Positions 1-22,432 of a stretch of DNA of 64,000 bases are shown here, piece after piece. The position numbers and the translations under genes are program-made. Under the pieces are notes generated by a model that worked only from the letters and a program-made list of their open reading frames with translations, searched no databases and was not told the DNA's origin. Position 1 is the first letter of the stretch, and every line of letters begins with the position of its first letter. This stretch comes from Paragemmobacter straminiformis (GTDB lineage Bacteria > Pseudomonadota > Alphaproteobacteria > Rhodobacterales > Rhodobacteraceae): positions 744,001 through 808,000 of the forward strand of contig NZ_JACLQD010000001.1 of the NCBI RefSeq assembly GCF_014243445.1, read 5' to 3'.

Positions 1-404
1 CGCTGGCGGCTGCGGGTCTGTCGCTGGCAAGACAGGGCGACGCGCTGGTGATGCGGCGCGATTTCGACAACCTGACCGCCAGCTTCGCCCCGCTGGCCAC
101 GATCGACCACGCCGACGCCTCTGGCATCGCGGGGCGCTGGCATTCGGACGAGCTAGAGGCCGAGGTGACGGTCGAGGTGCGCGACGGCGGGGTCTTCGCC
201 CGTTTCACCGGAATGCTCGGCTCGGGGCGGATGGAGCGCATGGCACCCGTCTGTCCCGATGTCTGGATCGTGGCCACCCGCCGCTCGATGGACGCCCCCG
301 CCCCCGGAGACTGGACCGTGACGGTCGGGCGCGATGGCAAGGGCGCCGCAACCTTTTTGACGCTGGGGTGCTGGCTGGCGCGCGGGGTGACCTACCGGCG
401 CTAG
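1..404 (+). CDS. C-terminal fragment, probable D-aminopeptidase/beta-lactamase-family serine hydrolase
   Basis: The frame is open from base 3 to the TAG ending at 404, so this is the tail of a gene that begins before the window. About 133 residues are visible: a compact, probably beta-rich domain with phrases such as GRWHSDELEAEV, GGVFARFTGMLG and GDWTVTVGRD. From memory this resembles the C-terminal accessory domain of D-aminopeptidases in the class C beta-lactamase/PBP fold family, but the catalytic Ser-x-x-Lys region lies outside the window. An internal GTG/ATG pair at 48-53 could be mistaken for a start; the frame continues upstream of it, so I treat the gene as truncated by the window edge. 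Family assignment is tentative. Confidence 0.45.
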   Translation, partial: LAAAGLSLARQGDALVMRRDFDNLTASFAPLATIDHADASGIAGRWHSDELEAEVTVEVRDGGVFARFTGMLGSGRMERMAPVCPDVWIVATRRSMDAPAPGDWTVTVGRDGKGAATFLTLGCWLARGVTYRR

Positions 405-632: not shown

Positions 633-992
633 ATGATAGACCGCCGCGCCATCGACCGTCTGTACGAGACCGTCGGAAGCGATCCCGAAAGCCTGATCGA
701 GATGATCGAGTCCTTTCTGGAAGAGGGGCCGGTTCTGGTTGCGCAACTGGCCGGGGCCGCCGCCGCGCGGGATTTCGTGCTGATGCGCCGGACCGCGCAT
801 TCGCTGAAATCGAACGCCCGCGACTTTGGCGCGACCCGACTGGGGGCGCATTGCGCCGAGATCGAAGAAGAGTTGCGCGCCGGGCAGGAACCCGATGACG
901 CAGCCCGCCGCGCGGCCACGGTCGGCGCGGAATGGCAGGTCGTCGAGCCTGCCTTGCGCGCGCTTGCGGCGGAGTTCGGGGCGCTGGCATGA
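633..992 (+). CDS. Hpt-domain histidine phosphotransfer protein
   Basis: A 119-residue single-domain protein that should shuttle phosphoryl groups between a hybrid kinase receiver and terminal response regulators in the cytoplasm. It shows the Hpt signature around the phosphorylatable histidine, RRTAHSLKSNARDFG, in an otherwise helical chain with an acidic N-terminal helix (LIEMIESFLEEG). The ATG at 633 is chosen because AAGGA at 621-625 precedes it by 7 nt; an in-frame ATG at 594 lacks such a site. Its stop overlaps the start of the RR-EamA gene (ATGA, 989-992), implying translational coupling. The large hybrid kinase at 3538-6207 ends in two receivers and has no Hpt of its own, so this protein is the natural relay partner. 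That pairing is inferred from proximity. Confidence 0.85.
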   Translation: MIDRRAIDRLYETVGSDPESLIEMIESFLEEGPVLVAQLAGAAAARDFVLMRRTAHSLKSNARDFGATRLGAHCAEIEEELRAGQEPDDAARRAATVGAEWQVVEPALRALAAEFGALA

Positions 993-2515
993 CGATCGAA
1001 GCCAAGGTTCTGGTCGTCGACGACAGCCGCACCTCGCGGATGATCGTGAACAAGGCTTTGCAACAGCTGGGCTGCCAGACGGTCGAGGCGGCATCGGGGC
1101 GCGAGGCGCTTGACCTGATGGGGCGTGACAGTTTCGATCTGGTCCTGCTTGACATCGAAATGCCCGAGATGGACGGGCTGGCCGTGCTGCGGCAGATGCG
1201 GGCAACGGGTGACCGGCTCAACACTCCGGTTCTGGTGATCTCGGGGCAAGAGGGCAATCTGGACGTGGTCGTTGCCGCCATCGAGCTGGGGGCCGAGGAT
1301 TTTCTGCCCAAACCCTTTGACCCGACGCTGTTTCGCGCCCGTGTCGCATCATGCGTCGAGAAAAAGCGCCTGCGCGATACGGAGATCGACTACCTGCGGC
1401 AGATGGACAAGCTGTCGGAAGCGGCGATGGTGATGGAAAGCGGCAAGTTCCACCCCGCCAACCTCGGGCTGGAAGCGGTCGCGGCGCGGCCGGATTCGGC
1501 GGGGCGGCTGGCCGCTGTCTTTGTCGAGATGGCGACGCAGGTCTATGACCGCGAACTTGCCCTGCAACGCAATGTCCGCACACTGAAGGGCGGCGCGGTC
1601 CTGCTGCTTTCGGGGCTGCTGTGGGGATTGGTGGTCCCCTTGTCGGTGATGATCTACCGCGAGAACCCGCTGACGCTTGGCGTGACCTTCTGGTCGAACC
1701 TCGTGGCCGGGCTGGTGTGCTGCGGCTGGGCGGTGGCGACGGGCAAGAGCCTGCGCATCACCTGGTCCGAGTTCCTGTTCCTGCTGGTCTGGGCGCTGAT
1801 CTTCGGCTTCAGCAGTGTCGTGCTGTTCGAGGCGGCGGGGCGCGTCTCGGGGATTGCCCTGTCGATCATCATGGCGATGCAGGGCTTTGCGGTCTTTGCC
1901 ATCGCGGCCGTGATGCGGATCGAGGCGCCAAGCCTGCGGCGGTTCATCGGCCTTGCGCTGGGGCTGGTCGGCGTGCTGGCCCTGTTGCTGGTGCGCGAGG
2001 ATGGCGGCGCGCTGGACGGGTGGGGCTGGATGCTGATCGCGATGATGGTGCCCATCCTTTACGGCGCGATCGACATTCTGCTGGCGGTGAAGCATCCGCC
2101 CACGCTGGATTCGGTTGTGAGCAGCGGGCTGGTGCTGGTGCTGTCGGCGGTGCTGGTGCTGCCCTTTGCCCTTTGGCGCGGGCATTTCTTCGTTCTGGCC
2201 GCCGAGCCGGGCCTGAGCGACCTGCTTGTGGCGATCACCGGTTTCTGCATCGGGCTTTGCACGGTGCTTTACATCCGCCTGATCGCGATGGCGGGCGCGG
2301 TGTTCGGCAGCCAGAGCGCCTATGCCGTTACCGTGGCGGGGATCGGCTGGAGCGTTCTTCTGCTGGGCGAGTCGCTCTCGCTCTGGACGGGGTTCGCGCT
2401 GGTCATGATCGTCTCGGGCCTGCTGCTTGTCGGCCCCAAGCGCGAGGCGGGCAACGTCGAAGTCGAATTCCGGCGCAAGAGGAAGGCAAGACTTGGCAAA
2501 GCGATCACCGCCTGA
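989..2515 (+). CDS. response regulator receiver fused to a DMT/EamA-type transporter
   Basis: A 508-residue protein. Residues 1-125 are a complete receiver: acidic pair D11/D12, phospho-acceptor D55 in LLDIEMPEMDG, and K108 in FLPKPF. Residues about 126-200 form a helical linker (LRQMDKLSEAAMVMESGKF, FVEMATQVYDRELALQ) of the kind that follows receivers in signalling proteins. From about 203 to the end there are roughly ten hydrophobic helices with the layout of drug/metabolite transporters (EamA), for example LLSGLLWGLVVPLS and LALGLVGVLALLLV, and a basic tail (EFRRKRKARLGK). There is no stop or frameshift between the parts, so the fusion looks real. It begins inside the Hpt stop codon (ATGA). 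Inference: phosphorylation directly gates a membrane exporter. Domain calls are strong; the transported substrate is unknown. Confidence 0.85.
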   Translation: MTIEAKVLVVDDSRTSRMIVNKALQQLGCQTVEAASGREALDLMGRDSFDLVLLDIEMPEMDGLAVLRQMRATGDRLNTPVLVISGQEGNLDVVVAAIELGAEDFLPKPFDPTLFRARVASCVEKKRLRDTEIDYLRQMDKLSEAAMVMESGKFHPANLGLEAVAARPDSAGRLAAVFVEMATQVYDRELALQRNVRTLKGGAVLLLSGLLWGLVVPLSVMIYRENPLTLGVTFWSNLVAGLVCCGWAVATGKSLRITWSEFLFLLVWALIFGFSSVVLFEAAGRVSGIALSIIMAMQGFAVFAIAAVMRIEAPSLRRFIGLALGLVGVLALLLVREDGGALDGWGWMLIAMMVPILYGAIDILLAVKHPPTLDSVVSSGLVLVLSAVLVLPFALWRGHFFVLAAEPGLSDLLVAITGFCIGLCTVLYIRLIAMAGAVFGSQSAYAVTVAGIGWSVLLLGESLSLWTGFALVMIVSGLLLVGPKREAGNVEVEFRRKRKARLGKAITA

Positions 2516-2541
2516 CCCGCGCGCCACGCAGGCACAGCCCT

Positions 2542-2559
2542 GCCCCGCGCCGGCGGGGC
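2542..2559. terminator. GC hairpin between convergent genes
   Basis: A perfect 7-bp stem, GCCCCGC (2542-2548) and GCGGGGC (2553-2559) with loop GCCG, lies in the 46-nt gap between the RR-EamA gene and the convergent binding-protein gene. It can serve both strands. There is no strong T-run, so termination may be partial or Rho-assisted. Confidence 0.5.
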
Positions 2560-2561
2560 GG

Positions 2562-3404
2562 TCAGAATTTCTGTGTCAGGTCGACGCCGAACCATTTCGC
2601 GGACAGGGCCGACAGCGTGCCATCGGCCTGCATATCCGCGACGATCTTGGCAAGGGCTTCTTCCAATTCGGGGTCGCCGGGTTCTATGGCCATCGCGGCG
2701 GGGCCGTAATAGAGCGGCTGGCCCACCACCTTGATCGGCGCGCCTTCCTTGATCAGGAACAGGAAATACATCAGGTCGTCGACCATCGCGTCGATGGATT
2801 TGCCTTCGGCCAGGGCTTTGGATGCCTCTTCCGAGGTTTCGAAGGGCACGACGACGGCATCCTTGATCTTGTAGGCCGGGGGCGGTTCGTCGGCCATGCC
2901 CATCGGTTCCTGCAGGACGTATTTCTCGAAGATCGACCCGTTCAGGGCGCCGATGCGTTTGCCCGTCGCATCGGGCGGCGACTGGATTGTGGTGTTGTCG
3001 CGCTGCACGGCAAGCACGGTCGGCGAGTAATAATAGACCGCCGGAAAGACCAGAACCTTGGCCCTGTCGCCGGTCGGAGACATGCTGCCCACCGACAAAT
3101 CCCACGCACCGCCCCAATTGCCGGCCGTGACCACATCCCATGTGGGGGTGACGAATTCGACCTTGACCCCAAGGCGCTTGGCCACTTCTGCCGCGACCGA
3201 GGCGTCGAAGCCCTGCCATGCGCCCGTCTCGTCAATCCAGGAATAGGGGGGCCAGGCCGGATCGGACGCGATCTTGATGACCCCCGCCGCGTTGATGCGG
3301 TCAAGGACCGGACCGGCGGCAAGCACCGTCGGCGCAAGGATGGCTGCGAGACAAAGCGTAACGAACCGGCGCAGGATACGTGTCACGGCCTTCTTGCCCC
3401 CCAT
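2562..3404 (-). CDS. solo amino-acid-type ABC solute-binding protein (SBP family 3)
   Basis: A 280-residue exported binding protein. A basic N-terminus is followed by a hydrophobic signal segment ([17 protein letters not shown]) and the mature start [18 protein letters not shown]. Family 3 features include [24 protein letters not shown], the lobe segment [13 protein letters not shown] and the closing [10 protein letters not shown]. The length is normal for the family. No permease or ATPase gene adjoins it: downstream is the convergent RR-EamA gene and upstream, divergently, is a hybrid histidine kinase. Binding proteins without a transporter often present ligand to a membrane kinase, as TorT does to TorS. 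I infer that role here from the arrangement; an ordinary transport role with permeases elsewhere in the genome remains possible. The ligand is probably a polar amino acid or related compound. Confidence 0.75.
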
Positions 3405-3537
3405 GCTGTCGCGGCACTTTGCCGGATGGCCATTTGTTTACGAACCTTGCCCGAGACAGGGGCCTGTCGCAAGCGCAGTGACCGTGCGACCGGCCCCGAT
3501 GCGGGGTGTGACCTGTCTTGTTGCGCGGGGCCGCGCG

Positions 3538-6207
3538 ATGGATAGGCAAGCGCAGGGCCAAAGGCTTGGCGTCGCGGGGCGGATCCTGATCTGCCTTTTG
3601 CTGATGTCCTCGGTCGTGGTGGTCATCAGCGCCATCGCGCTTTCCTCGTTTTCCCAGCTGCGCGGAACCATCGACCGCATCGTGTCGAAGGATCTGGAAG
3701 CGATCCTGCTGGCTGACGAGCTGAAACAGCGGGCCGAGGCGCTGTCGGGCATGGCCCCGTCGCTTTATGCGCAGGGGCTCAATCAGGATGCGCTGCTGAA
3801 ATACACGATGACCAGCTTTTCCGAGCAGGAGCGGCTGCAACTGCTGATCGGGCTGCTGGCGTCGACCTCGGCGCTGGATACGGAAAAGATCGATGCCGCC
3901 AAGACGGCGCTGTTCCTGAACCTCGACCAGCTTGCGACGACCTTGTTCCAGGGCGCGACGTTGCGCCAGAAACTCGACGCGGAAATCGGCAAACTTGCGA
4001 TGTTGCAGCAGTCCGGGCCGGTCGAGGCGGGGGCGGGTTCGGCCTCGGCCCTGATTTCGGGGCAGGTGCTGACCTTCCTGATCGAGGAGGACGCGGCGAA
4101 GCTGGACCAGGAGGTGGCGGAACTGAAGCGCAGCATCGCGCAGATGGCCCCTGACACGCCCGGCCTAGCGGCGGTGCAAGAGCTGTTGGTCGCCGAGCAG
4201 GGGATCATCGCGATCAAGCGTGACCTGATCGTGCAGATGGCCAAGGTGCGGGACCTTCTGGCGCAGAACGTGACGCTGTCGGCCACGCTGGTCGACATGG
4301 CCGAGCGTGTTTCGGTCGATGTGGTCGGACAGGTCAAGGACGCGACCGCCACGGGTCAGCAGCGGCTTGCGGTGCAGGCCTATTGGCTGAAGATCTTTGC
4401 TGCCGTGTCGATCATGGCGGCCATTGCGACGGCGCTTTACATGCAGCTTTCGGTCCGCCGGCGCATCGTTGCCCTGCGGGACGCGATCCGCGACGGATCG
4501 GATGCGAAACTGGCACCCTTGGCCGATGGCAAGGACGAGATTTCCGCGCTGGCCGCCAATGTGCGCTATTTCGTGCGCACGATCAAAGAGGCCGAAACCG
4601 ATCTGGAAAAGGCCCGCGCCGTCGCCGAAGCCGCGAACGAGGCCAAGAGCACCTTCCTTGCCACCATGAGCCACGAGATCCGGACCCCGATGAACGGCAT
4701 CATCGGCATGTCGCGGCTTTTGCGCGACACCAAGCTGGACGAGGAACAGGCCGATTTCTGCAAGACCATCGACCAAAGCGCCGACGCGCTGCTGGGGATC
4801 ATCAACGACATCCTCGACTTTTCAAAGGTCGAAGCGGGCAAGATCGACCTTGACCTGCACGACTTTGACCTGCGCGACACGGTCGAGGGGGCGATAGACC
4901 TTGTGTCCGGACGGGCTGCCGAAAAGTCGCTGAACCTTGCCTATCTGATCGAGCCAGAGGTTCCCGCCTGGATCATCGGAGATTCGCTGCGGCTGCGGCA
5001 GGTGCTGATCAACCTTGTGAACAACGCGATAAAGTTCACCGAGAAAGGCGATGTCTTTGTCAGGGTCGCGGTGGACCGGTCGGAACCCGCCCTGCACGCG
5101 GACGAGATCGCGCTGCGCTTTTCGGTTGCGGACTCGGGGCCGGGAATACCGGCCGACAAGATGGACAAGCTGTTCCATTCCTTCAGCCAGCTCGACGCGA
5201 CGACGACGCGCAAGCATGGCGGAACGGGGCTTGGGCTGGCGATATCGAAACGTCTGGTCGAATTGATGGGCGGGCACATCTGGGCCGACTCTCCGCCCGG
5301 CGAGGGGGCGACCTTTGCCTTTGTGATCCGCGCGCGGCGTTCGGCCGCCGCCTTGCCCGAAAAGCGGACGGGCGAGGGGCCGGTTGTGGCAGACCTTCGG
5401 GATCGCAGGGTGCTGGTGGTCGACGACAACGAGGTGAACCGCAAGGTGCTGCAAGCGCAGCTCACGTCATGGGGATTGCGGCCGGTCGTCGTATCCGGCC
5501 CCGCCGAGGGTGTGGCGCGGCTTGAGGCGGGAGATGCCTTCGACCTTGCCGTGATCGATCTGAACATGCCCGACATCGACGGTCTGGGCTTTGCCGCGAT
5601 GCTGCGGGCGCGGGCTGACAGCCGGACCCTGCCGCTGATCCTTTACACCTCGCTTGTGCCGCTGTCGCAGGCGCATCGCGACGAGGTGCGCGCCCTTGGC
5701 TTTGCCGAGGTTCTCGCCAAGCCGATCAAGGCGTCGCAGTTGCAGACGTCGATCTTCCGCGTTCTGGGCAACGAAAGCGAAAAGCGGGTGCAGGGCGCAC
5801 AGGCGGCCCCCGCATCGGTGGCCGGTTTCGCGGCGCTTCATCCGCTGCGGATCCTGCTGGCGGATGACAACATGACCAACCGCAAGCTGGGACGAAAGGT
5901 GCTAGAGCGGCTGGGCTATGAGGCCGATCTTGCCAATGACGGGGCGCAGGCCCTCGAATGCGCTGCCCGCACGCGCTATGACCTTGTGCTGATGGATATC
6001 GAGATGCCGGTGATGGACGGGATCGAGGCCTGCCAGACCATCAAGGCCGATCCGGCCTATGGGGCGCCCTGCATCGTCGCGCTGACGGCCAATGCGATCA
6101 CGGGCGACCGCGAGAAATATCTGGCGGCGGGGTTCGACGGCTATCTGTCAAAGCCGCTGAACCTTGACCAGCTGATGCAGCAACTGGCGCGCGCGAAGCC
6201 GGTCTAG
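3538..6207 (+). CDS. membrane hybrid sensor histidine kinase with two receivers
   Basis: An 889-residue inner-membrane kinase. TM1 is at about 12-35 ([19 protein letters not shown]), followed by about 245 mostly helical periplasmic residues and TM2 at about 282-305 ([18 protein letters not shown]), then HAMP, a DHp helix with [13 protein letters not shown], an ATPase domain ([35 protein letters not shown]), receiver 1 ([11 protein letters not shown]) and receiver 2 ([11 protein letters not shown]). The ATG at 3538 is chosen because earlier in-frame starts would run into the divergent binding-protein gene and would put about 88 atypical residues before TM1. The large helical sensor recalls TorS. 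No Hpt domain is present; the protein at 633-992 can supply it. Likely targets are the RR-EamA and RR-GNAT proteins flanking it. Confidence 0.88.
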
Positions 6208-6239
6208 GCGGGCGGGGCGCGGGCGGGGCCTGCCGCGCC

Positions 6240-6269
6240 GGTTCTGTGCGGTTCAGTGCGGTTCTGGAT
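6240..6269 (+). repeat. three 10-bp phased direct repeats upstream of RR-GNAT
   Basis: GGTTCTGTGC (6240-6249), GGTTCAGTGC (6250-6259) and GGTTCTGGAT (6260-6269) follow each other at exactly one helical turn. They lie in the 221-nt gap between the kinase and RR-GNAT genes. Phased direct repeats are typical of activator sites, but function is unproven. A TTGACA at 6317-6322 could be a -35 box; I see no convincing -10 at the right distance. I see no gene in this gap. Confidence 0.4.
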
Positions 6270-6428
6270 GAATGCCCAAGCATTCCGTCCGTAAATGAGC
6301 CGTCCGGTAATAATCTTTGACAAGATCGCACGCGCCGGGTGAGGGTTTCGGGATTGACCTTGATGCCTTGTGCGGCGGCACCGGCTATCGGAACCGCGCT
6401 TTCTTTGTCCGATCGGGGATAGTGACCT

Positions 6429-7382
6429 ATGGGCCGTATTCTTGTTGTCGATGATTCAAGCACGGTCCGGCTGAAGCTGACCAAGGCGGTCAGGACATTG
6501 GGGCACGAGGTCTTTGCCGTGGCCGACGGTCTTGCCGCGCTGAAGGCGGTGAACGAGCAAGACTACGACACCGTGCTTCTCGATATCATGATGCCCGGCA
6601 TGGACGGTTTCGAGGTGCTGGAAGCGGTCAAATCCGAGCCCCGGACCAAGGACATTCCGGTCATCGTCATTTCGGCGCTGAGCGATACGATGACCAGTGT
6701 CGTCAAGGCGATGGAACTGGGGGCCGAGGATTTTCTGCCCAAGAACTTCGAACTCGACCTGTTGAAATCGCGTCTGACGGCCAGCGTCGAGAAAAGCCTG
6801 AAGCGGATGGCCGCGCCGCAAATCTCGGTGCGCGCGGCCGCGCCCGACGACATTCCCATTCTGCTCAGCCTGATCAACACCGCAGGTGCGGGCCTGCCGC
6901 TCGAGATCTGGCGCAGCACGGCGGCAGAGGGGCAAAGCGCCTGGGACAAGGGCCGTGCCGATATGTTGGACGACGCGCTCGACGTCCATTACGGCAACTG
7001 CTGGATCGCCGAGACGCCGGTCGGCGGGCTTGGGGCGATGGTGCTTTACGTGCCACCGAGGCAAAGCAATCCGGGCAATGCGGGCGCGGCCAGCTTCATG
7101 GGCCCGCTGGAAGAACTGGAGTGTGCGGCGCATGGCACGGCCCATGTGGCCTATCTTTGCACCGTCGACAGCGCGCGCGGGCAGGGCATCGGGTCGGCCT
7201 TGCTGCGTTTTGCGGAAAGCCGCCGCACCGAGCAGGGGCTGACGCTGGTCGTTGCCAGCTCGAACTACGGGGCGCGGGCGCTGTACCAGCGGCACGGATA
7301 TTCCGAAACGATGCGCCGCCCGATGATACTGGCGAACGGCCACGTGAACGGGCACGACTGGATCCTGATGCGCAAGGCCTGA
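6429..7382 (+). CDS. response regulator receiver fused to a GNAT acetyltransferase
   Basis: A 317-residue soluble protein. Residues 1-125 are a receiver with D8/D9, phospho-acceptor D52 (LLDIMMPGMDG) and K105 in DFLPKNF. From about 133 a GNAT domain begins (ISVRAAAPDDIPILLSL) and runs to the end. It shows the acetyl-CoA pyrophosphate loop RGQGIGSALLRFAES after the beta-4 segment AHVAYLCTVDSA, and the C-terminal SSNYGARALYQRHGYSE typical of N-acetyltransferases. There is no DNA-binding domain. The GAEDFLP segment also occurs in the RR-EamA protein, suggesting a common receiver ancestor. The gene follows the hybrid kinase on the same strand and is convergent with the ABC permease at 7408. Inference: phosphorylation controls acetylation of a small molecule or protein. 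The substrate cannot be read from the sequence. Confidence 0.85.
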   Translation: MGRILVVDDSSTVRLKLTKAVRTLGHEVFAVADGLAALKAVNEQDYDTVLLDIMMPGMDGFEVLEAVKSEPRTKDIPVIVISALSDTMTSVVKAMELGAEDFLPKNFELDLLKSRLTASVEKSLKRMAAPQISVRAAAPDDIPILLSLINTAGAGLPLEIWRSTAAEGQSAWDKGRADMLDDALDVHYGNCWIAETPVGGLGAMVLYVPPRQSNPGNAGAASFMGPLEELECAAHGTAHVAYLCTVDSARGQGIGSALLRFAESRRTEQGLTLVVASSNYGARALYQRHGYSETMRRPMILANGHVNGHDWILMRKA

Positions 7383-7407: not shown

Positions 7408-9369
7408 TCAGCGGCGCGCGCCTAAGCTTTCGACGCGGTTGCGCGACCATGTCAGCAGGACATGGTCGGCAAGCAGACCGATGAAGGCGACGGCGAAGCC
7501 CAGAACCAGCCCCTTGCCCACATCGGCCGAGGACAGGGCACGCTGCATTTCCTGCCCGAGGTCCTGCGTTCCGATGAAGGCCGCGATGATGACCATGAAC
7601 AGCGAGAACATGATCGACTGGTTCGCCCCGACCAGCAGCGTCGGAACCGCCAAGGGCAGTTTGACCTGCCAGAGCATCTGGCGCGGATTGGCCCCCGACA
7701 TGAGCGCGGCCTCGACCAGCTCGGGCGGGACCGAGCGCAGCCCCTCGACCGTGTAGCGCAGGATCGGCACCGTGGCGAAAACCACGACCGCAGCGATCAC
7801 GGCCACGTCGTTGACGCCGAACAGCATGATGACGGGGATCAGGTAGATGAAGCTGGGGAAGGTCTGGAGCGTGTCGCAGACCAGCAGCATCCGCGCGGCG
7901 CGTTTGGGGCGGGCTGCGGCGATCAGGCCAAGTGGCAGCCCGATCAGCAGGGCAAGCGTCACCGAGACCGTGACCATGTAGACGGTGATCATGGCGCGGT
8001 CCCACCAGCCCGACAGCGCGATGGGCAAGGCAAAGGCCAGACAGACCAGCGCCGAACGCCGGCCCCCCACCCGCCAGCCGATGCCCGCGACAAAGACCAG
8101 AACGGCGCTGGCGGGCAGCCACAGGAACGCATCGCGCAGCGGGATCAGCACCCATGTTATCAGGAACCAGCGCAGCCAGTCGGCCAGCGGTGCCACCACC
8201 GTCAGCAGCACATCGACACCCGCATCGACAGGCCCCGCAAGGCTGAGGGCCTGCTTGCGCTCGACCTCGGTGAAATAGGGGTGCAGTGCCGACAGGGCAA
8301 AGCCGATCGCGGTCAGCGCGAGCCATGCCAGCAGATGCGGATGGCGCTGGCGAAAGGTGGCGCCGGCGGCGTGGTGGACCGGCTGGCGGTGCGCCGCCGC
8401 CTTGGACATGCGGTCGAGCAGGATCGCCAGAAGGACGATGGTCGTCCCGATTTCGAAGGACAGGCCGATCTTGAGGGCCTGCAACAGTTGCAGAAGCTTT
8501 TGCCCCAGCCCCGGCATTCCGATGAACGAGGCCAGAACCACCATGGCAAGGCTTTGCATAATGACCTGGTTGACCCCGATCAGAATCTCGGTCCGCGCGG
8601 CGGGCAGGCGCACGCGGGTCATCAACTGCCAGCGCGTGGCCCCCGACATCTTGCCGCTTTCGATGATCTCGGGCGGAACGGCGCGCAGGCCGAGCAGCGT
8701 CAGGCGGATCATCGGCGGGACCGAGAAGATGATGGTGACGATGGCACCGGCTTTCGGACCGATGCCGATGAAAACCACGACCGGAATCATATAGGCGAAA
8801 TGCGGCAGTGACTGCGCGATGTTCAAAAGCGGGTTCAGCACGCGCTCGGCGACCGAAAAGCGCCATGCGAGCGTGCCGAGCGCCAGCCCCAGAAGCACCG
8901 AAAGCGGGGCCGCCACCACGATGACGGACAGGGTTTCCATCGCCCATTGCCATTGGCCCATGACGGCGATCCAGACAAAGGTGCCTCCGGCGAACGCGGC
9001 AAGGCGGCGCCCGCCCAGGGCATGGCCCAGCGTCGCGGCGGTCGCCGCGATCACCACCCACGGGATCGGGCCAAGGCGGGGCCAACGCGCCTTGCCGTAA
9101 AGCAGGTTGGCCGTGACATCGAGCCCGAATTCGACGAGGTCGGAAAAGGCGCGGGTCAGCGCCATCAGGCCAAGGTCGTCGCGGGCAAAGGCGAAGGCCG
9201 CGTTGATCCATGCGGCAAAGGGAATGACCAGCGCCTCGGGCGGGCGCAGCAAGGCTTCGGGCAGGATGTTGCGACCCGTGGCCAAAAGGGCGGCCAGCAG
9301 CAAAAGCGCCTGCGCGGTGCGGCGGCGGTCGAAACTGGCCGGGGCGGGCGAGAGTGCGGCTGCGGTCAT
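7408..9369 (-). CDS. double-length betaine/TMAO-type ABC transporter permease
   Basis: A 653-residue inner-membrane protein containing two ProW-like permease units in one chain. Each has the coupling-helix signature: ESGKMSGATRWQLMTRVRLP in the first half and EAALMSGANPRQMLWQVKLP in the second, and each is preceded by a similar segment (SLPHFAYMIPVVVFIGIG; TFPSFIYLIPVIMLFGVN). Additional hydrophobic segments at the N-terminus and between the halves make it longer than classical ProW (about 350 residues). This fused layout fits the TMAO/betaine-type transporters of marine Rhodobacteraceae (TmoW-like), an assignment from memory. Its ATG overlaps the stop of the ATPase gene by 4 nt, so the two are coupled. 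It should form the membrane pore of the importer encoded with the ATPase and the binding protein at 10497-11441. Confidence 0.85.
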   Translation of the reverse strand: MTAAALSPAPASFDRRRTAQALLLLAALLATGRNILPEALLRPPEALVIPFAAWINAAFAFARDDLGLMALTRAFSDLVEFGLDVTANLLYGKARWPRLGPIPWVVIAATAATLGHALGGRRLAAFAGGTFVWIAVMGQWQWAMETLSVIVVAAPLSVLLGLALGTLAWRFSVAERVLNPLLNIAQSLPHFAYMIPVVVFIGIGPKAGAIVTIIFSVPPMIRLTLLGLRAVPPEIIESGKMSGATRWQLMTRVRLPAARTEILIGVNQVIMQSLAMVVLASFIGMPGLGQKLLQLLQALKIGLSFEIGTTIVLLAILLDRMSKAAAHRQPVHHAAGATFRQRHPHLLAWLALTAIGFALSALHPYFTEVERKQALSLAGPVDAGVDVLLTVVAPLADWLRWFLITWVLIPLRDAFLWLPASAVLVFVAGIGWRVGGRRSALVCLAFALPIALSGWWDRAMITVYMVTVSVTLALLIGLPLGLIAAARPKRAARMLLVCDTLQTFPSFIYLIPVIMLFGVNDVAVIAAVVVFATVPILRYTVEGLRSVPPELVEAALMSGANPRQMLWQVKLPLAVPTLLVGANQSIMFSLFMVIIAAFIGTQDLGQEMQRALSSADVGKGLVLGFAVAFIGLLADHVLLTWSRNRVESLGARR

Positions 9370-10400
9370 GCCGCGGTCTCCGGAAGGTCGGGGCCAAGAA
9401 GGATGTCGAGCGCCTCGGCGCGGTCCATCAACCCGACCGAACCGTCGGCCGCGCGGACCGGGATGAAGTCGCGCGGGTCGCAGGCGATGATCCGCGCGAT
9501 CTGGTGCAGGGTGGCATTTGCCGCAAGGGCATCGCCCTCGACGCTGCGCCCGTTCACGGGGCGCGACAGCGCCCCCGCCCGCACCACGCGCGACCGGTCA
9601 ACCGCCGATGTGAATTTGGCGACATAGGGGGTAGCGGGGGCCATCACGATCCGTTCGGGCGTGTCGCATTGTTCGACCATGCCGTCCTTCATGATGGCGA
9701 TGCGGTCGGCCAGACGGATCGCCTCGTCGAAGTCATGGGTGATGAAAACGATGGTCTTGGCGACCATTGCCTTGAGCCGCAGGAATTCGTCCTGCATCTC
9801 GCGCCGGATCAGCGGGTCGAGCGCCGAGAAGGGTTCGTCCAGAAACCAGATGTCGGGCTCTACCGCCAGCGAGCGCGCGATGCCGACGCGCTGTTGCTGC
9901 CCGCCCGAGAGTTCGCGCGGGAAATAGCCCTCGCGCCCCTTGAGGCCGACGAGGGACAGCATCTCGGTCGCGCGGGCGATGCGCGACGCGCGGTCCTGTC
10001 CGCGCATTTCCAGCGGAAAGGCCACGTTCTCAAGCGCGGTGCGGTGGGGCAACAGGCCGAAGGACTGGAACACCATGCCCATCTTGCGGCGGCGCAGGTC
10101 GATCAGTTGCGCTTCGGTCATCGCGCCGAGATCGCGGCCCTCGACCATCACGGCGCCGCTTGTCGCGTCGATCAGGCGGGCAAGGCAGCGCACCAGCGTC
10201 GACTTGCCCGAACCCGACAGGCCCATGACCACCAGCATCTCGCCGCGCTTGATGGACAGGGATACGTTGCGCACCGCGGCGATGTGGCCGCCGGCCTGCA
10301 AGTCCTGCGTGGTCGTCCGTTCGTTCAGTTCGGGCATCTGGCCCGGTCCGAACACCTTCCAGAGGTTATGGCAGGAAATGACGCTGTCCGTATCGGTCAA
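9366..10400 (-). CDS. betaine/TMAO-type ABC transporter ATPase (ProV family)
   Basis: A 344-residue cytoplasmic ATPase with Walker A GLSGSGKST, Q-loop VFQSFGLLPHRT, signature LSGGQQQRVGIAR, Walker B IWFLDEP and switch ITHDFDEA. The C-terminal segment (about 260-344) is shorter than the tandem CBS domains of classical ProV but includes the VGLMDRAEAL region typical of that regulatory part. The likely start is TTG at 10400, with CGGAG about 8 nt upstream on the coding strand; no good ATG exists before the conserved NLWKVFG. It lies downstream of the binding-protein gene, separated by a terminator-like hairpin, and overlaps the permease start by 4 nt. The family imports betaine, choline, proline or TMAO; the adjacent TorTSR genes favour a methylated amine. 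Confidence 0.88.
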   Translation of the reverse strand: MTDTDSVISCHNLWKVFGPGQMPELNERTTTQDLQAGGHIAAVRNVSLSIKRGEMLVVMGLSGSGKSTLVRCLARLIDATSGAVMVEGRDLGAMTEAQLIDLRRRKMGMVFQSFGLLPHRTALENVAFPLEMRGQDRASRIARATEMLSLVGLKGREGYFPRELSGGQQQRVGIARSLAVEPDIWFLDEPFSALDPLIRREMQDEFLRLKAMVAKTIVFITHDFDEAIRLADRIAIMKDGMVEQCDTPERIVMAPATPYVAKFTSAVDRSRVVRAGALSRPVNGRSVEGDALAANATLHQIARIIACDPRDFIPVRAADGSVGLMDRAEALDILLGPDLPETAA

Positions 10401-10416
10401 GGCGGGGCTCCGTTGG

Positions 10417-10443
10417 AAAAACCACCCGGCGCGAACCGGGTGG
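10417..10443 (-). terminator. intrinsic terminator/attenuator between binding-protein and ATPase genes
   Basis: A perfect 8-bp stem, CCACCCGG (10422-10429) and CCGGGTGG (10436-10443) with a 6-nt loop, is followed on the minus strand by TTTTTCC (complement of 10415-10421). It sits inside the operon after the binding-protein stop, so partial termination would give more binding protein than ATPase/permease. Confidence 0.75.
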
Positions 10444-10496
10444 ACAGTCGGGGACGGGCCGCCCGACGGGCGACCCGGGGTTCGTTCGGTCAGGGG

Positions 10497-11498
<1,002 letters not shown>

Positions 11499-11539
11499 TC
11501 ACAACCTTTCCTGAGAGAAAACTTAGGCAGCAGTTGTGA
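11499..11539. promoter_or_regulatory. inverted repeat in the tmoX-like/torR divergent promoter region
   Basis: TCACAAC (11499-11505) and GTTGTGA (11533-11539) form a perfect 7-bp inverted repeat centred midway between the divergent transport operon (start 11441) and torR (start 11629). It could be a shared regulator site. It does not match the E. coli TorR box as I remember it (CTGTTCATAT), so the bound protein is unknown. Confidence 0.35.
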
Positions 11540-11628
11540 ACGCGTCAGACCCCGTAGATGAATGGCTTGGAGAAAGATGTGACAGGATGTTAACAAGATC
11601 CGGCCGTCAGTTCGGTGAAAGTGCGCCC

Positions 11629-12333
11629 ATGACCATCAGACCGGCCCATATCGTGGTGATCGAGGACGAGCCGGTGACGCGCACCGCCTTGGCCGGATAC
11701 CTCGAATCCTTCGGCTACCGCGTGACCGAATGCGCCAGCGCCGAAAGCGCCGAGCGGGTGCTGGCACTGGAAAACCCCGACCTTTTGATCGTCGACATCA
11801 ACCTGACCGGCAAGGACGGGCTGGAGATCACCCGCGAACAGCGGGCGCGGTCGGAAATCGGGATCATCCTTTTGTCGGGACGCACCGATGACGTCGACCG
11901 GATCGTGGGGCTGGAGCTGGGGGCCGACGACTACGTCTGCAAGCCCTTCAACCGGCGCGAATTGCTGGCGCGGATCAAGAACCTGTTGCGGCGCACGGCG
12001 GCGATGCGGCAACTCGCCCGGCGGGTGGTGCATTTCGCGGGCTACACCTTCGACACGGCGGCGCGCCACATCACCGATGCCGAAGGCGCGACGATCCAGC
12101 TGACGCGCGGCGAATACGAATTGCTGCGGGCCTTTGTGCTGAATCCGGGTGTGGTGATGGACCGCGACCGCCTGCTTGCCACGATCACCCACCGTCAGAA
12201 CGGCACCAACACGCGCACCGTGGATGTGATGGTCAAGCGGCTGCGCGCAAAGCTGGGCGACGACCCCAAGGTGCCGCGCATCTTCGGCACCTCGCATGGC
12301 GAAGGCTATGTGTTCACTGCGCCGCTTGGCTAG
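11629..12333 (+). CDS. torR: TorR-like OmpR-family response regulator
   Basis: A 234-residue DNA-binding response regulator. The receiver has IEDEP acidic residues, phospho-acceptor in LLIVDINLTGKDGLEI, and K in YVCKPFNRREL. The C-terminal winged helix shows LTRGEYELLRAFVLNPG, RTVDVMVKRLRAKLGDD and HGEGYVFTAP. The ATG at 11629 is chosen because it directly precedes the receiver and follows a GTGAAAG-type site; longer in-frame starts add an unrelated 31-residue tail. The DINLTGKDGL context and the neighbouring torS and torT genes identify it as TorR. Its 3' end overlaps the 3' end of torS by 20 bp, tail to tail. Targets are not obvious: no torCAD/dor reductase genes lie here, so the adjacent importer operon is the first candidate. 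Confidence 0.82.
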   Translation: MTIRPAHIVVIEDEPVTRTALAGYLESFGYRVTECASAESAERVLALENPDLLIVDINLTGKDGLEITREQRARSEIGIILLSGRTDDVDRIVGLELGADDYVCKPFNRRELLARIKNLLRRTAAMRQLARRVVHFAGYTFDTAARHITDAEGATIQLTRGEYELLRAFVLNPGVVMDRDRLLATITHRQNGTNTRTVDVMVKRLRAKLGDDPKVPRIFGTSHGEGYVFTAPLG

Positions 12334-15202
12334 GCGCGTCCGACAGCGACCGGAGCGCCGCGCGCAACTCGGCCTCGGCCGCCGTGGCAAGCCGTGACAG
12401 CGTGGCAAGGCCGGCTGCCGAAGGTGCCGCGCCGCGCGACAGCCCGTCGAGATGCCCGACCAGTTCGGGCAGGTCGAAGTTGCCCGCCGCCCCCTTCAAC
12501 TGGTGCGCCCGCCGCGCCATCGCGGGCAGGTCGCCCGCACGGGCCGCCGCAATCACCGCTTCGGTTTCGGCAGGCAGGCGGTCGAGCATGAGGACCAGCA
12601 GGTCACGGGTGCGGCCATGACCAAGGTCTTGCAGCGTGGTGCGCACCGCCGCCGCGACATGCGGGGGGCAATGCCGTTCGAGACTGGCCTTCAGCTCTTC
12701 GGGCGTGATCGGCTTTGCGACGACCTCGCGCATTCCGGCGGCAAGGCAGGCGGCCACATCCTCGGGCTGGACATGGGCCGAACAGCCGATCACCGGCAGA
12801 TGCGCAGCCTGCGGTGAACCCGGCAGGGCGCGGATGCGGCGGGTGGCTTCGATCCCCGATATGCCGGGCAGGCTGACATCCATCAGAACCGCATCGAAGG
12901 CTTCGGCCGCGACCAGCGCCACGGCCTCTTCGCCCGTGGGAACCGTTTTCCAGCGATGCCCCAGCGCGTCGAGATAGGCCTCGACGACGCTGCGGTTGAC
13001 GGGATGGTCCTCGACCACCAGCACGCGCAGGCCGCGCAGGGCGGGAAGCGGGGCGGCATCGGTGCCCCCCTCGTCCTGCGCGGAGAGGGCAAAGGGCAAG
13101 GTCAGGGTAAAGACCGCCCCCTGCCCCGGCACCGATTGCGCCGTCAGCGTGCCGCCCATCACCTCGGCCAGGCGGCGCGAGATGGTCAGGCCCAGACCCG
13201 TGCCGCCATAGGTGCGGGCGGTCTGGGTGGTTTCCTGCTGGAAGGGGGCAAAGACCCGTTCCAGCGCATCGGGGGCGATGCCGCGTCCCGTATCCTCGAC
13301 CGCAAAGGCATAGCGGCGCGGCCCTTCGCCCGACACATCGGTCACCCGCAACGTGATGCTGCCGCTGTCGGTGAATTTCGCGGCATTCGAGATGAGGTTG
13401 AAGAGGATCTGGCGCAGCTTGTCCATATCGCCCAGAAGCGGCTGTTGCGGCGTTTCGGGCAGGACGACCCGCAGGGCCAGCCCCTTTTCCTCGGCCACCG
13501 GAGCCATCAGCAAGGCGATGTCGCGGATCGCACTGTCAAGCCGGAAGGGCACGGCCTCGAGGCTGGCATTGCCGCTGTCGAGTTTCGAATAGTCGAGAAT
13601 GCTGTTCAGGATGCCCATGAGCCCCTTGCCCGACCCGAGCGCCGCGTTCAGCCGCGCGCCCTGCGCTTCGGTCAGGCCGTCGCGGGCAAGGCTGCGCAAC
13701 ATGCCCAGCACGCCGTTCATCGCGGTGCGGATCTCGTGGCTCATCATCGCAAGGAATTCGGACTTGGCGCGATCTGCCGCTTCGGCGCGGTCGCGGGCGG
13801 CATCATGGGCGGCCACCTCGCCGCGCAACTGTTCGGTCTGTTCGGCGACAAGGCGTTGCAGGTCGCTGCGATGGGCCTGCAATTCGGTCAGGTAGCGTTC
13901 GCGTTCGGCTTCGTATTCGCGGTTGGTGATGGCCTCGCGGCGGAACACCTCGACCGCGCCTTCCATGCGGGCGATTTCGTCATCGCCCTTGGGCACGACC
14001 GCCGCGCCAAGGTTGCCGGTCGCAAGCCGTGTCATCGTCGCGGAAAGCGCGTTCAGACGGCGGATCAGGTTGCCGCGCACATAGAACCACAGCACGGCAA
14101 GCGACAGCACGAGCGCCAGCACCGACGAGGCCGCGTAAAGCTGTTGCGTGGCGCGGATGGCCTGTTCGGCGGCGCGTCCGGCATCGACGGCGCGGTCCTC
14201 GATCTCGTCGGCAAGGGCGGCGGCGCTTTGCTCGAGCCCGAGGGCTGCCACCCGCACATCGGTTTCCGCATCGGCGATGCGGGCGGTCAGATCGAGGTTG
14301 CGGGCCGTCAGTTCGAAAAGGCCGCTCACCTCGGGCGGGCTGGCGCCGCCGGAATTGACCACGCGCAACAGTTCGAGCGCCCGGTCGGCGCGGCGCGGAT
14401 CGTTGACCGAGAGGATGCGGCGGGTCACGACGCGCACCCTTTCGTCAAGCTCGGCCCGCAATGCGCCAAGGTCGGTCTGGGCCTTTGCCGCGACGATGCG
14501 GTTCAAGAGCAGCCCGATTTCCGAGGCATGGGCGCGCAGTTCGAACATCAGGCCAAGCTGGAACAGATCGACCTCGATCAGCCGGTCCAGCGCATCGAAG
14601 CGCGCCTGACGGTCGCCGGGGGATTCGGTTTCGAGATCGTAGAGGTTCGAGATCACCGCCGAGGTGCCCATCTCAGCATTGGCCACCAAGGTATCCGCGA
14701 TGCCGGTCAGTTCGACCGTCGCGTCGAGGCCCCGTTGCAAGGTGGCATCGCGCTGCGCCGTGACGCGGATGCGCTGGCGCACCAGCGCGTCGAGCGAGGT
14801 GATCGCCTTGCGCATGCGGGCTTCGGCGGCAAGCGCCTCGGCCGGGGCGGCATTGGCTGGGGCGGCGCTGCGCGGCGTGCTTGCAAGGCGGTCGTGCAGG
14901 GCGTCGACCTGACGGAACAGATAGGCCGCGCGTTCGACCCGCTGGTCCTCGTCGGTCACGGCGGCAAGTTCGGGGGCTACGGCGACGACGCGGCTGGTCT
15001 CCTCGGCCACGCCGCGCACTTGCGAAATGGCGGGGATGGCTTCGGTCACCACGCGCGACTGGTTGCGCGCGACATCCTGCAATTCGAACCAGCCAAGGAT
15101 ACCGGTCGCCGCCGGAAACCCCGCGATCACAAGGATGGCAAGCATGAGCCTGCCACCGAGACTCGACTTGTGGACGAAGTTTCGCAAAGCTTGCTCCTGC
15201 AT
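12314..15202 (-). CDS. torS: TorS-like hybrid sensor histidine kinase
   Basis: A 962-residue tripartite kinase. TM1 (about 15-35, LMLAILVIAGFPAATGILG) is followed by a helical periplasmic sensor of about 320 residues and TM2 near 355-375 (SSVLALVLSLAVLWFYV), then HAMP, coiled coil, DHp (SHEIRTAMNGVLG), ATPase (NLISNAAKFTDSG, DTGRGIAPD, YGGTGLGLTISRRL), a receiver (VLMDVSLPGISG) and a C-terminal Hpt (RRAHQLKGAAGNF, His near 900). This order matches TorS, which binds the periplasmic protein TorT and phosphorylates TorR. The usual T-P after the DHp histidine (HEIRTP) is T-A here, which may alter kinase/phosphatase balance. torT starts divergently 63 bp upstream. The TorS call rests on architecture plus genuine torT and torR neighbours. 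Confidence 0.85.
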   Translation of the reverse strand: MQEQALRNFVHKSSLGGRLMLAILVIAGFPAATGILGWFELQDVARNQSRVVTEAIPAISQVRGVAEETSRVVAVAPELAAVTDEDQRVERAAYLFRQVDALHDRLASTPRSAAPANAAPAEALAAEARMRKAITSLDALVRQRIRVTAQRDATLQRGLDATVELTGIADTLVANAEMGTSAVISNLYDLETESPGDRQARFDALDRLIEVDLFQLGLMFELRAHASEIGLLLNRIVAAKAQTDLGALRAELDERVRVVTRRILSVNDPRRADRALELLRVVNSGGASPPEVSGLFELTARNLDLTARIADAETDVRVAALGLEQSAAALADEIEDRAVDAGRAAEQAIRATQQLYAASSVLALVLSLAVLWFYVRGNLIRRLNALSATMTRLATGNLGAAVVPKGDDEIARMEGAVEVFRREAITNREYEAERERYLTELQAHRSDLQRLVAEQTEQLRGEVAAHDAARDRAEAADRAKSEFLAMMSHEIRTAMNGVLGMLRSLARDGLTEAQGARLNAALGSGKGLMGILNSILDYSKLDSGNASLEAVPFRLDSAIRDIALLMAPVAEEKGLALRVVLPETPQQPLLGDMDKLRQILFNLISNAAKFTDSGSITLRVTDVSGEGPRRYAFAVEDTGRGIAPDALERVFAPFQQETTQTARTYGGTGLGLTISRRLAEVMGGTLTAQSVPGQGAVFTLTLPFALSAQDEGGTDAAPLPALRGLRVLVVEDHPVNRSVVEAYLDALGHRWKTVPTGEEAVALVAAEAFDAVLMDVSLPGISGIEATRRIRALPGSPQAAHLPVIGCSAHVQPEDVAACLAAGMREVVAKPITPEELKASLERHCPPHVAAAVRTTLQDLGHGRTRDLLVLMLDRLPAETEAVIAAARAGDLPAMARRAHQLKGAAGNFDLPELVGHLDGLSRGAAPSAAGLATLSRLATAAEAELRAALRSLSDAPSQAAQ

Positions 15203-15265
15203 GCGGAGGACCGCAGGGACAGGCTAACATCGAAAGCGGGGCATGTGGGAAGCGAGTTGACGGTG

Positions 15266-16351
15266 ATGCGGAGGCTGGCTGCGGTGCTGGTGCTTATGCC
15301 GGTGCTGGTGCTTATGCCGGTGCGGATTCTGGGCGGACCGGCGGCGGCACAGGAGGTCTGGCCCCTGCAAGAGCGGGCGGTGGCCTTTGACGATACGAGC
15401 GCGGGTGTTCCCGTCGATTACGTCCCGCTGGCCCGCGCAAGCCGCCCGTGGCGGCTGTGCGTGCTTTATCCGCATCTCAAGGACGCCTACTGGCTGAGCG
15501 TGAATTACGGAATGGTGGTCGAGGCGCGCAAGCTAGGCGTGGCCTTCGACGTGTTCGAGGCGGGCGGCTATCCCAACCTGTCGCGCCAGATCGAGCAGTT
15601 GCAGGGCTGCGCGTCGGATGCCTTTGATGCCGTGATCCTCGGGGCGGTGTCCTATGACGGGCTGACGCCGACGGTGGCGGCCATCGCCGCGAAGAAGCCG
15701 GTGATCGCCTCGGTCAACGACATCGACGATACCGGCATCACCGCCAAGGCCAGCGTGCCGTGGCGCGAGATGGGGGCCGCCGCCGGGCGGGTGATCTCGG
15801 CCCGCCACCCCAAGGGCAGCACGCCCGTGCGGATCGCATGGTTTCCGGGCCCGAAGGGCGCGGGCTGGGTGCGGTTCGTCGAAGAGGGATTCCGCGCCGA
15901 AATCGCGCAAAGCTCGGCCCAGATCGTGGCCACGCGCTTCGGGGACACGGGGCTGGAACAGCAGGTGCTGCTGGTCGAGGATGTCTTGGACGAGGTTCCG
16001 CAGATCGACTATCTGGTCGGCAGCGGCCCGATGGCGGAAGCGGCCGTGTCGATCCTGCGCGCGCGGGGTCTGTCGGACAGCGTGCAGGTCGTCTCGACCT
16101 ATATGAGCCATGCGGTCTATCGCGGCATCAAGCGGGGACGCATCCTTGCGGCGCCGACCGATTTCGCGGCCTTGCAGGGAAAACTGTCGGTCGAAATGGC
16201 GGTGCGCGCGCTGGAAGGCAGCCTGACGGTGCGCCATGCGGGTCCGGCCATCGTGGTGGTCGATGCGGCGACGATCGACCGGATCGGGGCCGAAGGCTCG
16301 CTTGCCCCCGCAAGTTTCGCGCCCATCTTCTCGCAGCCCGCGGGCAGGTAG
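15266..16351 (+). CDS. torT: TorT-like periplasmic sensor-binding protein
   Basis: A 361-residue periplasmic protein of the LacI/RbsB fold that presents TMAO to TorS. The signal peptide is MRRLAAVLVLMPVLVLMPV with cleavage near PAAAQ. The mature chain has LCVLYPHLKDAYWLSVNYGM, EAGGYPNLSRQIEQLQGC and DAVILGAVSYDGLTP, which I recognise from TorT, as well as IDYLVGSGPMAEAAVS. I chose ATG 15266 (a GTG at 15263 is adjacent); a very long open frame upstream is antisense to torS and is not coding. The signal peptide contains an 18-bp exact tandem duplication (15283-15318). It is divergent from torS and convergent with the aconitase X gene. In E. coli, TorT binds TMAO and TorS responds; here ligand identity is inferred from homology. 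Confidence 0.85.
   Translation: MRRLAAVLVLMPVLVLMPVRILGGPAAAQEVWPLQERAVAFDDTSAGVPVDYVPLARASRPWRLCVLYPHLKDAYWLSVNYGMVVEARKLGVAFDVFEAGGYPNLSRQIEQLQGCASDAFDAVILGAVSYDGLTPTVAAIAAKKPVIASVNDIDDTGITAKASVPWREMGAAAGRVISARHPKGSTPVRIAWFPGPKGAGWVRFVEEGFRAEIAQSSAQIVATRFGDTGLEQQVLLVEDVLDEVPQIDYLVGSGPMAEAAVSILRARGLSDSVQVVSTYMSHAVYRGIKRGRILAAPTDFAALQGKLSVEMAVRALEGSLTVRHAGPAIVVVDAATIDRIGAEGSLAPASFAPIFSQPAGR
15283..15318 (+). repeat. 18-bp tandem duplication in the torT signal peptide
   Basis: The 18-mer GGTGCTGGTGCTTATGCC occurs twice without a gap (15283-15300 and 15301-15318), giving VLVLMP twice in the hydrophobic core of the signal peptide. Slippage would change the length by six residues in frame, altering export efficiency without breaking the gene. 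Confidence 0.85.
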
Positions 16352-18089: not shown

Positions 18090-18169
18090 CTTGATCTCCC
18101 TGAAACAACATCCGTTGCGGAACCCTGAAGAGTTGCGCCGTTACCCCGTTTTCCCGCAAAGCTGCTAAA

Positions 18170-18218
18170 ACATCTGTCGTTGCGTGGGGCGATGCCTTAT
18201 GCATAGTGTAGCAGATGT
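18170..18218. promoter_or_regulatory. inverted repeat between aconitase X and the XRE-cupin regulator
   Basis: ACATCTG (18170-18176) and CAGATGT (18212-18218) form a 7-bp inverted repeat around an AT-richer centre containing the palindrome TATGCATA (18198-18205). It sits in the divergent promoter region of aconitase X and the regulator, a natural place for an autoregulatory operator. Binding protein is unproven. Confidence 0.35.
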
Positions 18219-18267
18219 GGTAATAAAAGAAAAAACTGTGAACGATGTGAAAATCGAGGGTTGGTCA

Positions 18268-18906
18268 ATGGACCAAGAAAGTACCGGGCAAGACACTGTA
18301 GAAGATGCGAATTGGGCCGAAGAGCGCGAGAAACTGCGCGCCGACCTTGGCCAGCGGATGAAAGCCCTGCGGCAGGATTGCGGACTGACCCTCGAAGGCG
18401 CGGCGATACGGACCGGCCTTGCCCTTTCGACCATCCACAAGATCGAAAACGGCCGCGTCTCTCCCAGTTACGAAAATCTGGTGCGGGTGGCGCGTGGCTA
18501 TGGCGTGGGGATCGAGCGTCTGCTTTCGGCCGAGGATGGCACCAACACCGCCAAGACCCGCATGACCGTGACGCGCGCGGGCACCGGCGGCAAGGTGCGC
18601 ACCGCGTCTTATGAATACGAGGTGCTTTGCACCGCACTGTCGGAAAAGAAGATCATTCCGCTTGTCGCCACGATCGACCGGCGCGGCAAACTCGGCCCCA
18701 AGGATCTTGGCGCCCATGACGGCGAGGAATGCATCTACGTTCTGTCCGGCCGCGTCGAATTGCAGGTCGAGCATTACGCGCCGGTCGAATTGGGCGTTGG
18801 CGATTGCGCCTATTACGACAGCACCCTGAAACACGCGATCCGCGCGCTGGACGACACCGAGACCCGGATTTTCTGGACCTCGACCGACGACGCCTTTACC
18901 AGATGA
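18268..18906 (+). CDS. XRE-family regulator with C-terminal cupin domain
   Basis: A 212-residue regulator. Residues about 15-80 are a Cro/C1-type helix-turn-helix (LGQRMKALRQDCGLTLEGA, RTGLALSTIHKIENGRVSP), and about 110-205 form a cupin barrel (HDGEECIYVLSGRVELQVEH, LGVGDCAYYDSTLKHAI) with metal-ligand-like residues H, E and H. Such proteins sense a small acid or amino acid and repress or activate nearby catabolic genes. I prefer ATG 18268 with GAGGG about 8 nt upstream; in-frame starts at 18184 and 18199 are possible and would add about 25 residues. It is divergent from aconitase X and 12 nt upstream of the pyrroline-2-carboxylate reductase gene, so it probably controls cis/trans-3-hydroxyproline use. 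The ligand is inferred only from context. Confidence 0.82.
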   Translation: MDQESTGQDTVEDANWAEEREKLRADLGQRMKALRQDCGLTLEGAAIRTGLALSTIHKIENGRVSPSYENLVRVARGYGVGIERLLSAEDGTNTAKTRMTVTRAGTGGKVRTASYEYEVLCTALSEKKIIPLVATIDRRGKLGPKDLGAHDGEECIYVLSGRVELQVEHYAPVELGVGDCAYYDSTLKHAIRALDDTETRIFWTSTDDAFTR

Positions 18907-18918
18907 ACACGAAGTAGA

Positions 18919-19956: not shown

Positions 19957-20007
19957 AACGGAAACACCCGCCACGTCAGGGCGCGGCGGGGTTCCAGAAA
20001 GGGCCGG

Positions 20008-21036: not shown

Positions 21037-21048
21037 GGTCCTGCCGCC

Positions 21049-22420: not shown

Positions 22421-22432
22421 CGCTCTCTCCCT

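Follow-up and report, generated by a model that had tools for sequence, protein, structure and literature searches.

The window analyzed here is a 64,000-nucleotide stretch of the Paragemmobacter straminiformis genome (assembly GCF_014243445.1, contig NZ_JACLQD010000001.1, positions 744,001–808,000), and the coordinates given for it are positions within this stretch. Positions 633–7382 carry a set of five putative phosphorelay genes, in which one receiver domain is fused to a membrane carrier of the EamA type and another to a GNAT acetyltransferase. The gene set is as described in the original prediction, and all domain matches of the five genes exceeded the Pfam cut-offs. The first gene (633–992, plus strand) encodes a single-domain histidine phosphotransfer (Hpt) protein of 119 amino acids (aa; Pfam Hpt, 53.1 bits, and alignment). 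It is followed by a receiver-linker-EamA fusion of 508 aa (989–2515, plus strand; Response_reg 99.1 bits, EamA 45.8 bits in two stretches), whose ATG at position 989 overlaps the Hpt stop codon. A lone periplasmic solute-binding protein (2562–3404, minus strand; SBP_bac_3, 108.8 bits) is encoded divergently from an 889 aa hybrid histidine kinase (3538–6207, plus strand; HisKA, HATPase_c and two Response_reg domains), with 133 bases between the two genes. The last gene (6429–7382, plus strand) encodes a receiver-GNAT fusion of 317 aa (Response_reg 93.2 bits, Acetyltransf_7 41.2 bits).

The kinase contains hydrophobic segments at residues 16–34 and 286–304, which would enclose a predicted periplasmic domain of about 250 residues, and the phospho-acceptor of its HisKA domain is H379. 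The second of its receivers has a tyrosine three residues ahead of the lysine, and the first has a valine there. Pfam reported no Hpt domain in this kinase. In the separate Hpt protein, the phospho-acceptor histidine lies in the motif AHSLKSN and was kept in 9 of 9 aligned Hpt proteins. The earlier claims of a complete His-Asp-His-Asp chain, of a kinase without its own Hpt and of outputs without DNA-binding domains were borne out: H379, the kinase receivers, the separate Hpt with its conserved histidine and intact terminal receivers are all present, and Pfam reported no DNA-binding domain in either fusion or in the other relay genes of 633–7382. A cyclase output domain was likewise absent from the two window fusions in the Pfam analysis, their outputs being EamA and GNAT.

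Twelve intact receiver-EamA loci were compared, namely the window locus, L017, L018, L019, L020, L021, L023, L048, L167, L168, L191 and L192. They span Rhodobacteraceae, two Mesorhizobium plasmids and one Hyphomicrobiales metagenome-assembled genome (MAG; L048), and a third Mesorhizobium plasmid record with receiver-EamA lies outside this comparison. All twelve have a gene for Hpt, and at each of them two receivers come after the kinase core. The receiver-EamA proteins of L167 and L168 are near-copies (512 of 513 residues), and those of L020 and L191 come from one genus (89% identity), so that the set amounts to about ten separate cases. The joint presence of Hpt, two-receiver kinase and receiver-EamA in other genera indicates more than chance. 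What the sequences show directly is that the parts are present, that their key residues are intact, and that genes for kinase, Hpt and receiver-EamA repeatedly share a locus. In a paralogue in the same genome (L017:5488–9549), a single chain of 1353 residues reads receiver-linker-EamA-PAS-PAS-HisKA-HATPase-receiver-receiver, with an Hpt gene adjacent, and this fusion is the strongest indication at the sequence level that receiver-EamA and such a kinase would work together. The original prediction had proposed a search of other genomes for the fused genes beside Hpt and hybrid-kinase genes; receiver-EamA was found in that setting at every intact locus compared, whereas full-length receiver-GNAT has so far been seen in this genome only.

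Some of the loci showed additional features. L018 and L021 each contain two receiver-EamA genes, and L021 also has a third copy (15073–16181), broken into a receiver open reading frame (ORF) and an EamA fragment. On the Mesorhizobium loti plasmid pML2037 (L167:4727–11689), a GAF kinase, Hpt, receiver-EamA and a 2-hydroxyacid dehydrogenase follow each other in an order shared with Mesorhizobium sp. 131-2-5; the M. loti receiver-EamA proteins are listed merely as 'response regulator' in NCBI/PLSDB. A thirteenth locus, L022, is decayed, with a truncated receiver, a truncated kinase and no Hpt found. There a 388 aa ORF between the truncated kinase and receiver-EamA (L022:6015–10490) recurs at 14514–15680, and is probably an insertion sequence.

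In the family sample of 295 genomes, matches to receiver-EamA at an E value of 1e-30 or better occurred in 12. Six of these carry the full-length protein, three of them (the window genome included) in two copies; the remaining matches were a truncated receiver (G269), the receiver only (four genomes) and EamA only (one). Receiver-EamA was also found in G956, G960, the three Mesorhizobium plasmid records and L048. A full-length match was found in this genome only among 385 genomes of the class (three candidates scored per genome), and in this genome and G235 only among 299 genomes of the phylum (five candidates scored per genome), misses in both samples being weak evidence. A profile scan of contigs was dominated by ordinary receivers, and among the best 80 of 508 relatives only the L048 match spans receiver and EamA. 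Such sporadic occurrence suits gene transfer or frequent loss. Judged from these sequence comparisons, the receiver-EamA relay is a recurring but patchy module.

In the window receiver-EamA protein, the receiver (residues 7–119, with D55 as phospho-acceptor position) is followed by a helical linker of about 75 residues and two EamA repeats from residue 201 onward, and the EamA score over the whole protein compares with a Pfam cut-off of 28.2 bits. Alignment of 11 receiver-EamA proteins, with those of L168, L191 and L192 left out, showed that D11, D12, D55, S85, F105 and K108 are identical in all of them. An excerpt of one study ties an S/T-F/Y pair to allosteric switching in terminal receivers (PMC9981736), and the kept active-site residues together with the S/F pair match what terminal receivers should show according to that excerpt. 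An AlphaFold model built from two sequences was fair for the receiver and linker (predicted local distance difference test score, pLDDT, about 75–89), with an overall mean of 58.4 and a predicted template modelling score (pTM) of 0.36. In this model, helix 112–150 exits the receiver and a second helix, 170–225, continues into the first transmembrane segment (204–222 by hydropathy) of the low-confidence membrane part. Hydropathy gave eight segments in all, and the low-confidence model about ten helices. If linker and transmembrane helix are continuous as modelled, a phosphorylation-driven change in the receiver could be passed to the carrier by mechanical means. Among 60 of 307 matches listed, the solved structure closest to the receiver-EamA profile was a PleD-type receiver, covering the receiver only; PleD resembles the fusion in its receiver, but makes c-di-GMP. 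The EamA part had no match among solved structures at E values up to 1. Related receivers are joined to nucleotide cyclase, GGDEF, GGDEF-EAL and SpoIIE domains. In a Gemmatimonadales MAG (L049:1061–3004), a HisKA-like part and a receiver are followed by the receiver-EamA linker (66.8 bits) and a Ser/Thr kinase domain. These other non-DNA-binding outputs on related receivers were counted in favour of a carrier output.

On the input side, a gene for a known or putative periplasmic protein lies beside the kinase gene at 8 of the 12 intact loci. The partner belongs to SBP_bac_3 in the window and L023, to DctP in L019, L020 and L191, and is a Tll0287-like protein in L192; in L018 and L021, and also in the decayed L022, it lacks a named family and has a signal-like start. 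The L048 contig ends upstream of its kinase. By eye, the secreted proteins of L018, L021 and L022 had been suspected to be SBP_bac_3 members, which was not upheld by Pfam (no match) or hhalign (probability 8.4), and that of L021 had no solved-structure match. The window binding protein has a hydrophobic N-terminal stretch (15–33), and its nearest solved chains are amino-acid-binding proteins; no amino-acid permease gene was found within 633–7382. The kinases of L020 and L023 pass the Pfam cut-off for the TorS sensor domain and that of L019 falls just below it. The window kinase was without this Pfam domain, and its TorS equivalog score was 472.8 bits (cut-off 676.5). The trimethylamine N-oxide (TMAO) sensing system TorT-TorS-TorR resembles the window relay in pairing a periplasmic binding protein with a hybrid kinase, but TorS has its own Hpt and the relay ends in the DNA-binding TorR. 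Since periplasmic TorT binds TorS, according to an excerpt of PMC3795677, a binding protein that hands its ligand to the kinase would be a fair model by analogy.

The receiver-GNAT protein consists of a receiver (residues 4–116, with D52 as phospho-acceptor position) and a GNAT domain with an RGQGIG acetyl-CoA-type motif. It keeps all six key receiver residues and forms one open frame with coding-type composition, and a linker search did not find the receiver-EamA linker in it. Whole-protein matches were confined to this genome among 19 genomes of the genus (12 with any match), the family sample (18 with any match; seven candidates scored per genome) and the class sample (25 with any match; five candidates scored per genome), these sets overlapping. 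No plasmid record covers 80% of the protein (78 had a partial match), and receiver-GNAT was absent from every other receiver-EamA locus compared. Relatives of its GNAT domain elsewhere are stand-alone proteins of about 190–230 aa in unrelated surroundings, and the neighbours of seven of them revealed no substrate pattern by eye. A match on an S. fredii plasmid to residues 86–317 was considered as a second receiver-GNAT and rejected, the open frame being a stand-alone GNAT without a receiver. The nearest solved structures were weak matches (best E value 7e-5), and a structure prediction from one sequence gave a mean pLDDT of 36.

Full-length occurrence in one genome only and stand-alone relatives in unrelated surroundings would suit the view of receiver-GNAT as an accidental fusion without much function, next to a receiver-EamA relay that is genuine. 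This explanation appears rather unlikely, as both domains score above the Pfam cut-offs, the active-site residues and the acetyl-CoA-type motif are kept, and the frame is of coding type. In a receiver tree of 35 rows, the receiver of receiver-GNAT paired with that of M. loti receiver-EamA (97/88 support), not with that of the window receiver-EamA, and its identity to the former is 61–63% as against 42% to the latter. Because of this grouping with a Mesorhizobium receiver-EamA, the protein resembles an exchanged output on a relay of that kind, and the simplest reading is that it may have arisen by GNAT replacing EamA on such a relay receiver.

The evidence suggests, with a probability of roughly 60%, that a multistep phosphorelay is encoded here in which a membrane transporter serves as the terminal response regulator. 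In the proposed pathway, the binding protein would deliver its solute, probably an amino acid or a related compound, to the kinase on the periplasmic side. The kinase would autophosphorylate at H379 and send the phosphate through its own receiver or receivers to the separate Hpt. From the Hpt, the phosphate would move on to D55 of receiver-EamA. The state of the receiver would be transmitted by the helical linker, the final helix of which runs unbroken into the first transmembrane helix in the model, and would alter the activity of the EamA carrier. Receiver-GNAT would be a second output on the same relay, with an acetyltransferase in place of EamA. EamA carriers are mostly exporters. We infer the phosphate route, the ligand, the direction of transport and the use of one Hpt for both outputs, and phosphorylation would gate transport rather than, for example, place the carrier. 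Control would then be post-translational and fast, as had been proposed.

Several results weigh against this transporter-ended phosphorelay. Receiver-EamA is patchy, being full-length in 6 of 295 family genomes with one further truncated case, and in only 1 of the 19 genomes of the window genus (this one, at two loci). The receiver-EamA receivers do not form one clade, a cyclase receiver (G063) joining them at a fork that the tree leaves unresolved. The bootstrap of this tree had not converged, and receiver-GNAT sits on a long branch. The receivers of the two window fusions are only 42% identical, so that a single Hpt for both is no more than a possibility. The membrane part of receiver-EamA was modelled with very low confidence, and a relation of the linker to HAMP, of which its layout is reminiscent, was rejected (profile score 8.5, below the median of 9.85 for 100 column shuffles). 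On the input side, the family of the periplasmic partner differs between loci, and such a partner was recognised at none of L017 (PAS kinase), L167 and L168 (GAF kinase), i.e. 3 of the 12 loci.

The EamA part could alternatively act as an input, a transporter-like sensor whose state acts back on the relay by way of its receiver, in the manner in which transporter-fused kinases would sense. One of these is CrbS, a hybrid kinase with a sodium-solute-symporter-like domain (excerpt of PMC5436829). The L017 chain, in which the EamA part precedes the PAS-PAS-kinase, fits such an arrangement. It is nevertheless improbable, since receiver-EamA is a separate protein in the window and in 10 of the 11 other intact loci, its receiver retains the full phospho-acceptor set, and the kinases have GAF, PAS or predicted periplasmic input domains of their own. 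The CrbS/MxtR-type fusions are like receiver-EamA in joining a transporter-like domain to phosphorelay parts (excerpt of PMC5436829). In them, however, the transporter belongs to the kinase and thus to the input side, while here it stands behind a receiver, except for L017 with both in one chain.

Slightly less probable still is a role of the two fusions as phosphate sinks or decoys, with a different response regulator, encoded at a distance, as the working output. The ability of single-domain Hpt proteins to serve multiple regulators would allow this, and the paired receiver-EamA genes of L018 and L021 would be compatible with sinks. The same holds for L023, where a LuxR-type (GerE) gene directly follows receiver-EamA and overlaps its end (L023:431–2278); it is a possible transcriptional partner, so that transcriptional outputs may exist at that locus. 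A sink, however, would not need the whole EamA domains that are kept across genera in place of bare receivers, and no such regulator lies within 633–7382. In the original prediction, the pair would acetylate and export a toxic amine or an amino-acid derivative on sensing it in the periplasm. The joint presence of an amino-acid-type binding protein, an EamA carrier and a GNAT speaks for this version. It is nevertheless highly improbable, because neither a toxic amine as substrate nor acetylation before export gained specific support, receiver-GNAT is missing from all other receiver-EamA loci compared, and the amino-acid family does not supply the partner proteins elsewhere, kindred kinases being paired with DctP, Tll0287-like or unnamed proteins.

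A different hint of a substrate comes from the flanks of the relay. The window relay and that of L192, from another genus, both adjoin a D-aminopeptidase gene and a peptide-type ABC system (SBP_bac_5), and their matching neighbours are 66–80% identical. These neighbours were not noted at the other ten loci, whose flanks were only partly annotated by Pfam. The amino-acid-type binding protein and the shared peptide-breakdown neighbours hint at amino-acid overflow from (D-)peptide breakdown as the concern of the relay, a testable guess that rests on two loci.

The closest known systems include the Hpt-linked relays with receiver-adenylate/guanylate cyclases (L025, L026 and L169, the last on S. 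meliloti pSymB), which are like the window relay in having an enzyme and not a DNA-binding domain as output. A related receiver lies beside a hybrid kinase in them, with an Hpt gene in L026 and an Hpt domain in L025. They differ in having a cyclase as output, and a search of these proteins for the receiver-EamA linker found none. Acetyltransferases of the GNAT type under signalling domains are already known, as are transporter-like domains on hybrid kinases such as CrbS (excerpt of PMC5436829). PixB of Myxococcus (PilZ-PilZ-GNAT) and a cAMP-regulated mycobacterial acetyltransferase share this layout with receiver-GNAT, but are controlled by cyclic nucleotides, where receiver-GNAT has a receiver instead (excerpt of PMC8316039). 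No receiver-EamA or receiver-GNAT protein appeared in the titles and abstract beginnings among the literature matches listed, which form a partial collection. A carrier as apparent terminal output of a phosphorelay is recurrent but patchy, and the GNAT side-output in the window is apparently unique.

Upstream of the relay genes, the window contains only the tail of the D-aminopeptidase gene (3–404, plus strand; Pfam), the whole gene being present at L027:8846–10405; it is probably not a relay part. Downstream, positions 7408–16351 carry glycine betaine/choline-type ABC genes (an OpuAC binding protein, an ATPase and a 653 aa protein with two permease halves) next to a TorR-like regulator, a TorS-like kinase and a TorT-like protein, possibly for choline or TMAO sensing. 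A catabolic cluster was seen by eye from the ORFs at 16404–28160; its proline-racemase-like, dihydrodipicolinate-synthase-like and amino-acid ABC genes hint at the use of hydroxyproline or D-amino acids.

By sequence comparison, the make-up with two outputs is not a conserved system, while the receiver-EamA relay is conserved. More tentatively, and with the balance leaning slightly against it, these loci may represent a modular type of phosphorelay in Alphaproteobacteria that allows a membrane carrier to be attached to the last receiver. An extracellular solute, read by a swappable periplasmic protein, would then gate transport directly, without a gene expression step, and in the present strain one relay would drive both a carrier and an acetyltransferase. 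The loci, with their swappable partners and outputs, form a natural set for testing relay specificity and the coupling of receivers to membrane proteins, and the single-chain paralogue at L017 offers a compact experimental object. Relays of this kind generally end in a gene switch, and both DNA-binding and second-messenger outputs of response regulators are familiar. With a carrier in the terminal position, two-component signalling would be able to set transport directly, and, if the wiring works, a signal from outside could directly switch transport in cells.

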